The notes under the pieces are model-generated. The model saw only the letters and a list, made by a program, of their open reading frames with translations, was not told the DNA's origin and searched no databases. A DNA stretch of 64,000 nt from assembly GCF_024362785.1 (NCBI RefSeq), contig NZ_CP093301.1:744001-808000 (forward strand), written 5' to 3'. The translations under genes and the position numbers were made by a program. This stretch comes from Evansella sp. LMS18. GTDB lineage: Bacteria; Bacillota; Bacilli; Bacillales; Salisediminibacteriaceae. This document shows, one piece after another, positions 46,193 to 48,932 of this stretch. Positions within the stretch are counted from its first letter, which is position 1. Every line of letters starts with the position of its first letter.

Positions 46193-46500
46193 TGCAAGAC
46201 TTCTTGCGTCCCTTGAGTTGTATGGTTGCCCCTGCTCAAGGGATGCAAGGCCTTCTTGCGTCCCTTGAATTGTAGAATTACTCCTGCTCAAGGGATGCAA
46301 GGCCTTCTTGCGTCCCTTGAATTGTAGAATTGCCCACGCTCAAGGGATGCAAGGCTTTCTTGCGTCCCTTGAATTGTAGAATTACTCCTGCTCAAGGGAT
46401 GCAAGGCCTTCTTGCGTCCCTTGAATTGTAGAATTGCCCACGCTCAAGGGATGCAAGGCCTTCTTGCGTCCCTTGAGATATAGGATTGCTCACGCTCAAA
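46193..46500. repeat. Array C: six tandem 52-bp hairpin units
   Basis: TGCAAG starts at 46193, 46244, 46296, 46348, 46400 and 46452: one 51-bp step, then four 52-bp steps. Units read CAAGGGATGCAAG, GCCTT (or GCTTT, ACTT), CTTGCGTCCCTTGA, then a GAATTGTAGAATT stretch. The arms TCAAGGGATGCAAG and CTTGCGTCCCTTGA pair 13/14, a strong hairpin. The one short step has a loop one base shorter. TCAAGGGATGCAAG is shared with array B. It lies between convergent genes and ends at the next gene's terminator. Confidence 0.96.
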
Positions 46501-46534: not shown

Positions 46535-47290
46535 TTATTCGTAAAATTTCCTAACTGCTGCTTTAAGTGAATGAATGAATTCGATATGTAACTTTATATC
46601 CAGTTCGTGCAGCCTTTTTGCCTGATCCGGCTTTACGCCTGTAATAAGAACCTCATTTCCCATATAACAAAGGGAAGCGAACATTCTTTTCAGCATTCTT
46701 ACACCAGAGGCTTCAATGCTGCCAACTGCAGTAAAGTCAAACAGCAGGGTTTCCGTACTCTGTTCTTTTGAAGACGCCAGTACATTGTTTTGTATAACGT
46801 TCATTTTGTCTTCGTTGAGATCCCCATATAACGGAATGAGAGCCACTCCATCCGTAATTTGTATGTACGGAGCCGACAGGCGGTTATTCTCCTGCAGCGC
46901 TTCCTCCAGCTTTTCCTTTTCTCCGAGCAGCTCAAAATTAGTTTCACTAAGCCGCTCTCGCAGGTTCGCCAGCTGTCCTGAAACTTCATCAATGGATCTA
47001 TCTTTCCGGAAGATGATTATCTCTCCATACAGGTCATTTCCCCAGCCTACAGCAAGTTCAACAGGAATGACTTCCCCTTGCTCAGTAACCAGGTTAGCTT
47101 CCAGGGTTACTTTTTCCTCTTCCGGTTTAACCCACCTTTTTACTTTATCCCGGCTTCCTTCCTCCACAGCCGAAAGAAAGGTATCTGCTTTACCGAGAAG
47201 TGCCGCCGCCTCTGAGGTAGAATCTAAAATCTTAAAGTTCCTGTCTATTACAACCGCGGAGAGCGGCAGATGATTAAGAGCTGTTTGCAT
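46535..47290 (-). CDS. PAS-coiled coil-STAS regulator (RsbR-like)
   Basis: 251 residues in three parts: a PAS domain (about 1-95: LSAVVIDRNFKILDSTSEAAALL...GEIIIFRKDRS), a coiled-coil (about 100-140, rich in Glu/Leu) and a STAS domain (about 150-250: VALIPLYGDLNEDKM, LLFDFTAVGSIEASGVRML). RsbR-type stressosome proteins have a variable sensor plus this type of STAS. The preferred ATG at 47290 has AAGGGAGG eight bases upstream; a longer frame starts at 47317. It overlaps the upstream B12-binding gene by 17 bases, so the two are likely one signalling unit. Confidence 0.85.
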   Translation of the reverse strand: MQTALNHLPLSAVVIDRNFKILDSTSEAAALLGKADTFLSAVEEGSRDKVKRWVKPEEEKVTLEANLVTEQGEVIPVELAVGWGNDLYGEIIIFRKDRSIDEVSGQLANLRERLSETNFELLGEKEKLEEALQENNRLSAPYIQITDGVALIPLYGDLNEDKMNVIQNNVLASSKEQSTETLLFDFTAVGSIEASGVRMLKRMFASLCYMGNEVLITGVKPDQAKRLHELDIKLHIEFIHSLKAAVRKFYE

Positions 47291-47939
47291 TATTTCTGCC
47301 TCCCTTACAGTCGTCAAGCCAGTATTGAAGGGAGCGTAAATCCCTTATTATAATTACATCATCCTTTTGAAAGGAGGAAAGTCCATACTTTTTTGCCATC
47401 CGGCCGCCAACAAGAATTAATGGTTTATATTCCCCATTGCTGATTTTTGCAATATATTCCTTTACCGCAGGGAGTCTGTAGGACAAAGCTGCAGAAAGGG
47501 AAACGACATCCGGCTTCCACTGTTTAATGGCTGCCAGTGCATGATCAAGCGGAAGGTCGGGACCGTGGTATCTTACACTCCACCCTTTATCCCTGAAGAG
47601 TGCTGCAGCCATTTTCATTCCTATATAGTGCTGCTCCCCTTCTACACTAAAGAGCATCGCTTTCTTTTTTACCGGCAAATCCTCATCCGCCTGCCGGTAT
47701 TTCTGTTCCATTGTCCGGGAAAGAGCGAAATCGCAAACTGCTGTAGCAAGATGCTCGTCAGCTACGGTAATCTCGTTTTCTTCCCAAAGTTCGCCTATAT
47801 AGTACATGGCAGGGGTTATGAAATCTTCATACAAACTAAGCCGGGAATATTTATTCTCAATTTCCTTAAATTGCTCTATTACCCCGTCTTCCCGCCCTTC
47901 AAGTAAAAGGCCAGCCAGCTGCTTCGGTTCCATTATCAT
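47274..47939 (-). CDS. B12-binding protein with CarH-like photoreceptor motifs
   Basis: 221 residues. Residues 1-85 are a helical bundle with W52-x9-E62-H63, the Wx9EH signature of the adenosylcobalamin photoreceptor family (CarH/LitR type). A Rossmann cobalamin domain follows, with an ExHxxG motif in GEQHYIG whose His104 should be the lower axial ligand, and SLSAALSYRLP and LVGGRMAKKYG as later motifs. There is no MerR DNA-binding domain. This suggests a light or B12 sensor whose output is the PAS-STAS protein next to it (inference). AAGGTGG precedes the ATG. It is the third gene of the operon. Confidence 0.85.
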   Translation of the reverse strand: MIMEPKQLAGLLLEGREDGVIEQFKEIENKYSRLSLYEDFITPAMYYIGELWEENEITVADEHLATAVCDFALSRTMEQKYRQADEDLPVKKKAMLFSVEGEQHYIGMKMAAALFRDKGWSVRYHGPDLPLDHALAAIKQWKPDVVSLSAALSYRLPAVKEYIAKISNGEYKPLILVGGRMAKKYGLSSFQKDDVIIIRDLRSLQYWLDDCKGGRNNANSS

Positions 47940-47957
47940 CTGTCATCCCACCTTGGC

Positions 47958-48314
47958 TTACCGGCCAGACTTGAGTATAGCAATCGCTTCATCAAGCATA
48001 TGCAAAAATGCCTGCTCCTCATCAGGGTCTGTTTTACCGGGTATGATTTCTTTTAATCTTTGAAAATTATCGATGATAAGCTCCGTCCCTACCTGTCTGC
48101 TCGTTAGTACTCGTTCAAGCCACTCCGTATAATCAGTAAAATACTTATTATCATCCATTAAACAGGCGGTTTCCAGATGATTCAGATGGTGGAAGTTATC
48201 CTCTTCGGTCCGTTTATATCCATTTTCACCAAACTTACCCCACAGCGCTGGATAGGCATCGTAAATTTGCTTTACAGCCTCGCTAACTATTTCTCTCTTC
48301 ACTTCCTGTTTCAT
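47958..48314 (-). CDS. Small helical protein associated with B12-binding sensors
   Basis: 118 residues, unrecognised by strict motif but all-helical in pattern. It carries YPALWGKFGENGYKRTEEDN, then HHLNHLETACLMDDNKYFTD and YTEWLERVLTSRQVG. I recall similar stretches at the N-terminus of cobalamin-binding regulators in other bacteria, where they precede the B12 domain; here the module would be a separate protein (inference). The ATG overlaps the preceding gene by four bases (ATGA), and the B12-binding gene starts 18 bases after its stop. Role unknown. Confidence 0.7.
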   Translation of the reverse strand: MKQEVKREIVSEAVKQIYDAYPALWGKFGENGYKRTEEDNFHHLNHLETACLMDDNKYFTDYTEWLERVLTSRQVGTELIIDNFQRLKEIIPGKTDPDEEQAFLHMLDEAIAILKSGR

Positions 48315-48616
48315 CGGGCCACTACCTTATATCGGGAGACTTTCGGCACGATAGAAGCCAGTTCTTTATCCGGATACTTTTTTTCAAGTTCATGTATTTT
48401 TTTATATTCGTCACTGGTCACCCAGGCGAGATAATTCTCTTTTGTTTCCCATTCCAGATGTACGGTTAGTTCCTGGGGTTTTTTATCATTCTGAAGCAGC
48501 TGAAAAGAAAGGAATCCTTCAGCTTTATCAACACCCCTCGTCCGGTTCCGGTATATGTTGATTACTTCTTCCGTCTTTTCTTCGGGCACAGTCACGGTGG
48601 AGGTAACAATGTACAT
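48311..48616 (-). CDS. ABM-fold monooxygenase, HmoA/IsdG-like
   Basis: 101 residues, a dimeric antibiotic-biosynthesis-monooxygenase fold. MYIVTSTVTVPEEKTEEV, EGFLSFQLL and HLEWETKENYLAWVTSDEYKKIH match small haem-degrading or quinone-type monooxygenases. The W and H in YLAWVTSDEYKKIH could be the haem-contacting pair of the IsdG/HmoA group, but the N-terminal Asn is replaced by Thr or not obvious, so haem degradation is not assured. AAAGGAG precedes the ATG by seven bases. It is the promoter-proximal gene of the B12/STAS operon, linked by a 4-base overlap to the next gene. Confidence 0.75.
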   Translation of the reverse strand: MYIVTSTVTVPEEKTEEVINIYRNRTRGVDKAEGFLSFQLLQNDKKPQELTVHLEWETKENYLAWVTSDEYKKIHELEKKYPDKELASIVPKVSRYKVVAR

Positions 48617-48932
48617 TCAAAAACTCCTTTACAAAAAAAAAATAGAGGTGCCGTTTCATAATCTATATACTAACCATATAGAAGGGGTAAAGCTGTGTCA
48701 AACGTTAATGTTCTGTGTGCGCTATCGATGGTTAGTGTGGATTATCCAAAGACGGAAGTTGTCTTTTTGGTAAATGTTAATTAAATCAATTTGGCAAAGT
48801 TATTTCATGAAGCTCTGTTCAGTAACTCCTCCTGTAAAAGTGCTGTTCCCGCTAGAGTCGCCGTCTTACGCTGCTATCGAAAAGAAACGTTCGTTTTTTA
48901 AAACACAAGTCTATATATGAAACTCATTCATC
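48617..48932. other. Intergenic gap, no gene recognised
   Basis: 316 bases between the ldh stop and the start of the four-gene B12/STAS operon. It should contain that operon's leftward promoter, but no convincing -35/-10 pair or riboswitch was found. A short AAACGTTCGTTT palindrome with a T tract near 48887-48900 might end ldh. Confidence 0.4.

Follow-up and report, generated by a model that had tools for sequence, protein, structure and literature searches.

A four-gene operon of Evansella and other Bacillales that probably encodes a split photocobilin-like light sensor coupled to the general stress pathway

Photocobilins such as SasPcob (8J2W/8J2X) and AbDPcob (8J2Y) are light sensors in which a B12-binding and a bilin-binding domain are fused. 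They take up adenosylcobalamin as well as biliverdin, and their Co-C bond breaks under green and under red light. In SasPcob, Asp270 is reported to contact rings A-C of biliverdin, Trp296 to contact both the bilin D ring and the corrin, and His137 to touch a bilin propionate across the dimer, and STAS and SpoIIE partners were suggested from predicted interaction networks (Zhang et al. 2024, PMC10979010). BBAG-2, a globin associated with B12-binding proteins, has been shown to bind biliverdin (Rockwell et al. 2023, PMC10151467). Here we describe an operon of Evansella sp. LMS18 (assembly GCF_024362785.1, contig NZ_CP093301.1, positions 744,001 to 808,000; the whole 64,000-nucleotide stretch analyzed is called the window) that encodes an ABM-family protein, a 118-residue globin, a B12-binding protein and a PAS-STAS protein. 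We consider it probable that these genes specify a light sensor of the photocobilin kind whose subunits are individual proteins and whose output feeds the general stress pathway.

Gene order and relatives of the four proteins

Relatives of the operon were examined in four samples. The named set comprises the best 80 of 298 relatives from named genomes, all of Bacillales, and supplies the counts given below over 80 or 79; since it was chosen by similarity of the B12 protein, it favors the intact operon. An earlier homologue set provides further residue counts (ABM protein, n=40; globin, n=45; B12 protein, n=31). Profile searches covered 397 genomes of the window's order, and a phylum sample covered 299 genomes, including G000 and a few from the window's own order.

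Coordinates and strand confirmed the initial annotation of four overlapping or closely spaced leftward genes within 48616-46535. The ABM and globin genes share 4 nucleotides, 18 nucleotides separate the globin and B12 genes, and the B12 and PAS-STAS genes overlap. The order ABM-globin-B12-STAS was found in 77 of the 80 named loci (72 exactly, 5 with an additional STAS match), a recurrence that is more than chance. Among the named loci are those of Evansella clarkii (86%), Halobacillus, Pontibacillus, Thalassobacillus, Sporosarcina, Planococcus, Fictibacillus, Cytobacillus and Metabacillus. The three loci off this pattern have no globin (L174), no STAS protein (L178) or an upstream STAS protein (L179). 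The STAS protein encoded upstream of the ABM gene in L179, and likewise in L034, is a different one; these two loci probably belong to one genome. Furthermore, pairwise distances among the four proteins co-vary (r 0.78-0.92) across the 78 loci with all four matches, L179 among them, relatedness not having been removed.

The 118-residue protein had been noted initially as helical, a description that held but missed its kinship: judged by sequence profile and predicted model, it is a globin of the phycobiliprotein fold, akin to the photocobilin bilin domain, and it may bind a bilin. At 22.8 bits, it clears the PF00502 (Phycobilisome) cut-off of 22.2 bits by a narrow margin, and 6 of 13 family members match that family at E 0.1 or better. 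With the globin alone as query, phmmer reached the C-terminal domain of 8J2Y at E 0.16, so a family profile was needed; built from 13 members, it reached 8J2Y at 2.8e-4 and 8J2W/8J2X at 0.04, followed by phycobiliproteins at 0.2-0.4. In the profile alignment, D39 pairs with an Asp of SasPcob and W65 with a Trp, and their spacing, 26 residues, is that of Asp270 and Trp296. D39, H42 and H43 are each present in 79/79 named globins (44/45, 41/45 and 45/45 in the earlier set), as is W65 (45/45). The AlphaFold2 model, built from 34 sequences, has a mean predicted local distance difference test (pLDDT) score of 95.8. In Foldseek, no PDB entry matched this model at E <= 0.001; the best E was 5.6e-3, at probability 1.00 and TM-scores of 0.69-0.83, and 48 of the 50 matches listed are titled phycobiliprotein, phycobilisome or smURFP, the remaining two (8u0f) just "bacterial fluorescent protein". 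VIA-align superposed the model on allophycocyanin B with Z 15.1 (2.0 Å, 117 residues) and on the light state of SasPcob with Z 14.1 (2.2 Å, 114 residues). Unrelated helical bundles can reach such Z values, and we therefore base the kinship on sequence, fold and pocket residues agreeing with one another. The third helix (model residues 56-71) makes a heme globin less likely, as it has no invariant His at the place where heme globins carry their proximal ligand.

The B12 protein matches the Pfam families B12-binding (1.3e-15) and B12-binding_2 (8.7e-14, starting at residue 7) and no further family up to E 1, which bears out the initial description of a CarH-like protein without a DNA-binding domain; the two cobalamin motifs read initially (W52/E62/H63 and H104) are likewise present. 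Its closest solved relatives are the photocobilins 8J2W/8J2X (5.7e-14), then 8JBS and CarH. Membership of CarH itself was rejected, as the MerR-type DNA-binding domain is absent and the score is 56.5 bits against a cut-off of 400. In the earlier set, E102 is kept in 30 and H104 and G107 in all 31 homologues. SignatureFinder describes GxxW, EH, GxxH and GxxxP as signatures of light-responsive cobalamin domains (PMC11796333), and all four occur here (G49-W52, E62H63, G101-H104 and G126-P130). His133 aligns with His137 of SasPcob and is His in 48/80 and Tyr in 21/80 homologues. Only three other proteins of this genome match PF02310, making the operon's protein the sole CarH-like candidate; we take the three to be a mutase subunit, a 588-residue protein and a MetH-sized protein. 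The adenosyltransferase family PF01923 is present in 20/20 genomes tested.

The first gene encodes a member of the ABM family (Pfam 2.9e-18) and adjoins the globin gene in 40/46 globin-bearing loci of the earlier set and in 79/79 named loci. IsdG-type heme oxygenases rely on a catalytic triad of Asn, Trp and His. In the ABM protein this triad is incomplete: W65 and H75 are kept in 80/80 named homologues (38/40 and 40/40 in the earlier set), and the Asn site is occupied by Ser6 (80/80 and 39/40). The heme oxygenase family PF01126 was absent from 20/20 genomes checked and the bilin reductase family PF05996 from 16/16, the same searches matching 3/14 and 1/14 control genomes, respectively. On these grounds, and with ABM-type heme-degrading proteins considered at this locus only, we regard the ABM protein as the best candidate for a bilin-forming enzyme. 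In a relative with ABM and globin only (L021:3962-4666), a 234-residue gene ends on the ABM start; its product presumably resembles relatives of amino-thiazoline-carboxylate hydrolase.

The last gene encodes a protein with a C-terminal STAS domain (Pfam 4.7e-9) whose profile finds YtvA (7.4e-19) and then RsbR (about 1e-14) as best solved relatives, so that the YtvA parallel drawn initially stands. Its top VIA match is a Listeria stressosome chain (Z 17.4, 3.0 Å, 157 residues). The LSxP linker is nearly invariant in named homologues (L147, 78/79; S148 and P150, 79/79). The match list of VIA spans residues 120-260 only, and the N-terminal part was therefore judged by topology; the order of strands and helices in the AlphaFold2 model points to a PAS fold, at moderate confidence (mean pLDDT 76, predicted template modelling score 0.42, block means of 81-88 over residues 21-100). 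Membership of the YtvA/LOV family was rejected, the score being 66.3 bits against a cut-off of 250, and this part is not a LOV domain because residues 1-110 contain no Cys. Of the two possible start codons, the ATG at 47290 agrees better with homologues than the TTG at 47317.

Table 1. Coordinates of the operon's genes, motifs and flanking signals in the window
Feature	Coordinates	Strand	Basis
ABM-fold protein, 101 residues, IsdG/HmuQ-like, candidate bilin-forming heme-degrading enzyme	48311..48616	-	family scores and residues
Photoglobin, 118-residue phycobiliprotein-fold globin, candidate biliverdin-binding subunit	47958..48314	-	PF00502, 8J2Y/8J2W C-terminal domain, model
Globin D39-x-x-H42-H43; D39 aligns with SasPcob Asp270	48186..48200	-	profile alignment
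Globin W65, aligns with SasPcob Trp296	48120..48122	-	profile alignment
CarH-like B12-binding protein, 221 residues, helical bundle and Rossmann part, no DNA-binding domain	47274..47939	-	Pfam, solved relatives
W52-x9-E62-H63 adenosyl-pocket motif	47751..47786	-	80/80 named, 31/31 earlier set
E102-x-H104-x-x-G107 lower cobalt ligand motif	47619..47636	-	each 80/80 named
PAS-STAS output protein, 260 residues from TTG, LSxP linker	46535..47317 (TTG) or 47290 (ATG)	-	YtvA/RsbR-type STAS
Promoter-like TTGACA-17-TATGGT, upstream of first gene	48673..48701	-	10/12 matches
Terminator-like hairpin and T-run, directly past STAS stop codon	46508..46529	-	8 pairs

The promoter-like and terminator-like sites fit an operon and are no proof of one, because neither count exceeds its shuffles: the scans gave 8 promoter-like sites (7.1 expected) and 4 terminator-like sites (3.8 expected), so that neither site is evidence alone. 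A 52-bp tandem repeat of 5.5 copies (window 46193-46476) lies between the STAS gene and a convergent gene, which we take to be polysaccharide-deacetylase-like.

Stress-response genes, output domains and distribution

The rsbT- and rsbX-like genes sought as companions of a stress output were found in the same genome, in a cluster that we take, by similarity, to be rsbR, rsbS, rsbT, rsbU, rsbV, rsbW, sigB and rsbX (L093). In the order sample, RsbT was matched in 132/132 genomes with the PAS-STAS protein compared to 185/265 others (Fisher 1.4e-16, shared ancestry not removed). The PAS-STAS gene and rsbT are no more than 12 kb apart in at least 26 genomes, and in L090 and L091 the operon is located upstream of the alr-to-sigB region, with a few genes in between. 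In genome G147, an rsbS-rsbT-like pair additional to that of the sigB locus was seen about 6 kb from the operon (L092:13699-14509).

RsbT was also matched in 158/161 genomes with the globin. In two of the three exceptions, G096 (L049) and G233 (L189), a PAS-HisKA-HATPase protein replaces PAS-STAS, and in the third, G135, the globin match is weak. Between the kinase and STAS forms, the PAS domains are homologous (8e-15). A PAS-GGDEF protein occurs in L055, with the gene order B12-ABM-globin-PAS-GGDEF, and its PAS matches that of the STAS form more weakly (46 columns, probability 60%). Histidine kinases also occur in RsbT-bearing genomes (L054, L184 and L196), hence output exchange does not depend on RsbT having been lost. 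A "long STAS" label for L047, L049 and L054 was rejected, as the hidden Markov model match lay in the PAS part; these proteins are of histidine-kinase type (by Pfam for L049 and L054). The STAS label of L055, a GGDEF protein, was likewise wrong, and since the STAS counts of the earlier set (n=30) contain such mislabelled loci, alignment A4 and the named set were used for the PAS-STAS protein. In L182, L183, L185, L192, L194, L197, L198 and L199 the B12 protein adjoins a PAS-like protein whose C-terminal part was not recognised, possibly another output; at several of these loci the adjacent genes encode large proteins that we take to be CheR/CheB-like.

Across the 397 genomes, matches were obtained for the globin in 161, the B12 protein in 183, PAS-STAS in 132 and RsbT in 317, the weakest B12 and STAS matches possibly being other proteins. 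Among the matches listed, the globin and the B12 protein occur together in at least 119 genomes (at most 2.5 kb apart in at least 90), the B12 and STAS proteins in at least 115 (adjacent in at least 110), and all three in at least 81. In the phylum sample, the globin was matched in 9/299 genomes, 7 of them outside the window's order. Six of these seven matches are single open reading frames of 358-363 residues in which the globin is followed by the B12 part, the seventh (L211) being a 202-residue frame with the globin alone. Downstream of the fusions, a histidine kinase is encoded in two cases and a GGDEF protein in two.

Proposed mechanism and competing explanations

The unit reads as a two-protein photocobilin, because the globin is related to the photocobilin bilin domain and keeps the biliverdin-holding Asp and Trp. 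We call it a split relative and not a photocobilin, since the fusion that defines photocobilins is absent and the two parts are separate reading frames. Gene order, homology, pocket residues, natural fusions and genome association lead us to propose that the proteins carry chromophores, respond to light, form a complex and enter the stressosome, as follows. The ABM protein would open the heme ring and so yield a linear tetrapyrrole, which the photoglobin would hold, probably non-covalently, in a phycobiliprotein-type pocket. The B12 protein would bind adenosylcobalamin through Wx9EH and ExHxxG, dimerise in the dark and, as its homology and the natural fusions suggest, dock the globin so that the bilin touches the corrin as in fused photocobilins. 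The Co-C bond would then be broken by green light acting on B12 or by red light acting on the bilin, and the B12 oligomer would change. The PAS domain may read this change and pass it through the helical linker to the YtvA/RsbR-type STAS domain, probably a non-phosphorylated stressosome subunit that would control RsbT and hence SigB. Cobalamin supply would be sensed too, because without adenosylcobalamin there is no dark state.

Several observations weigh against this proposal. Ser6 of the ABM protein aligns where the solved relatives 1IUJ and 8AVH carry Asn, and the protein falls well short of all NCBIfam cut-offs for heme degradation, its best score being 45 bits against 130. The photoglobin Cys site is T36 in the window globin and Cys in 21/79 homologues, and neither a CXQD nor an RGMC motif is present, the sequence being T36-E-E-D39. 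Even a fused photocobilin may bind its bilin poorly, AbDPcob being reported to bind biliverdin weakly, at about 20% occupancy (PMC10979010). Two of the light signatures are incompletely kept among homologues (GxxH in 43/80, at G101; GxxxP in 69/80, at P130), the other signature positions being kept in 80/80. The PAS domain is weak in Pfam, with PAS_9 matched by 1/20 members of alignment A4, a member other than the window protein. E169 and A203 stand where RsbRA has the Thr phosphorylated by RsbT, which we take to be T171 and T205; in the STAS alignment, YtvA is likewise without Thr at both positions. The RsbT association was checked for phylogeny by genus only (44/44 vs 64/91, p 6e-6). Finally, in the window's own family, where the globin was matched in 15/35 genomes, 13 of the 15 have no B12 or STAS match beside it, and the globin loci L028, L029, L032 and L033 have no ABM gene either. 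Nine of these 13 genomes have B12 and STAS genes adjacent elsewhere (G002, G004, G005, G008, G009, G010, G022, G024 and G028). In L028, L029, L032 and L033, the globin gene directly follows an HD-domain gene and a 170-residue YwgA-like gene, as we presume them to be, which suggests a second genomic home for the globin.

Some of these points would also fit B12-only sensing of light or cobalamin, in which a bilin-free globin plays a structural or regulatory part and the ABM protein has another function. We regard this alternative as rather unlikely. AbDPcob works despite its low biliverdin occupancy (PMC10979010), Ser6 replaces the Asn, PF01126 and PF05996 are missing, and the two genes can part: besides the four ABM-less loci above, L048 and a fragment in L064 have the globin without ABM, and L174 has ABM-B12-STAS with no globin detected. 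However, D39 and W65 are invariant in named globins while in AbDPcob, a weak binder, the Asp has been lost, and the ABM gene nearly always stands beside the globin gene.

Similarly doubtful is a variant in which the sensor works as proposed and the STAS protein acts on another partner or pathway outside the stressosome. Related PAS domains joined to a histidine kinase (L049, L054 and L189) or to GGDEF (L055) indicate that outputs are exchangeable, the RsbT-phosphorylated Thr positions are not kept, and most operons were not seen beside rsbT. Against this variant, the closest relatives in sequence and fold are YtvA and stressosome RsbR, the S and P of the linker are invariant, RsbT accompanies every PAS-STAS match, and only 3/161 globin genomes have no RsbT, two of them with a kinase in place of STAS.

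Least probable, by a clear step, is a heme or tetrapyrrole stress sensor in which heme is degraded by the ABM protein and bound, as such or as its product, by the globin, while the B12 and STAS proteins report tetrapyrrole status and light is incidental: there are heme-degrading enzymes among ABM relatives and two invariant globin His residues (79/79), but the third helix offers no such His, the nearest globin folds are bilin proteins, and the Wx9EH adenosyl pocket is the one described for B12 light sensors (PMC10979010).

The split-photocobilin reading can also be put more broadly, and we hold this version more tentatively. Separate B12 and globin subunits would form a widespread in-trans photocobilin sensing green and red light; a novel type of ABM-fold enzyme, in place of a heme oxygenase (HO)-type oxygenase, would supply the bilin, possibly a product other than biliverdin; and a shared PAS domain would report mostly to the SigB stressosome and otherwise to a histidine kinase or diguanylate cyclase. 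If the reading is correct, green and red light perceived by B12 and a bilin would inform the general stress response in many Bacillales, among them Halobacillus, Planococcus, Sporosarcina, Fictibacillus and Cytobacillus. B. subtilis probably has no such route; it is not among the 12/14 control genomes with a PF02310 match. The reading would further raise the question of which bilin arises without a classical heme oxygenase, provide a handy optogenetic part in the form of a two-subunit photocobilin, and make the exchange of STAS, kinase and GGDEF behind related PAS domains a case of evolutionary sensor re-wiring.

Comparison with known systems

A stress sensor modeled on CarH and YtvA had been proposed for this operon initially. 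Its B12 and STAS components and a possible stressosome link were retained; that proposal had left the 118-residue protein unexplained and the ABM protein unlinked. With these two included, the closest known system is the photocobilin and not CarH alone. The titles and abstract openings of papers listed by literature searches mention no B12-STAS operon in Bacillales, a scope within which Schneider et al. 2022, who reportedly named photoglobins, does not fall.

CarH shares Wx9EH and the lower His ligand with the window protein and differs in its MerR-type DNA-binding domain. YtvA (LOV-STAS) and RsbR share the LSxP-linked STAS domain and, in the case of YtvA, the missing Thr at the RsbT sites, whereas the window PAS is Cys-less and its chromophores would sit in separate proteins. 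IsdG, HmuQ and HmoB share the ABM family and the Trp and His positions; the window protein differs by its Ser for Asn and its scores below all cut-offs.

Like the window globin, BBAG-2 and photoglobins have a B12-binding protein as neighbor in bacteria that do not photosynthesize (pre-2 clusters, Myxococcales). An HO-type heme oxygenase, inside or outside the cluster, is described for them, and a bilin reductase for BBAG-2 (PMC10151467). The window operon differs in its STAS partner and in the absence of PF01126 and PF05996 from the genomes checked. Photocobilins as described combine a CarH-like B12 domain with a phycobiliprotein-fold bilin domain and have the same adenosyl-pocket motif, and the bilin-pocket Asp and Trp of SasPcob are kept in the window globin; they are fused, whereas here there are two proteins, an ABM gene and a separate PAS-STAS output (PMC10979010). 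Photocobilins, B12-associated bilin globins and YtvA were known already, and what is new is the split form, the ABM partner and the stressosome-type output.

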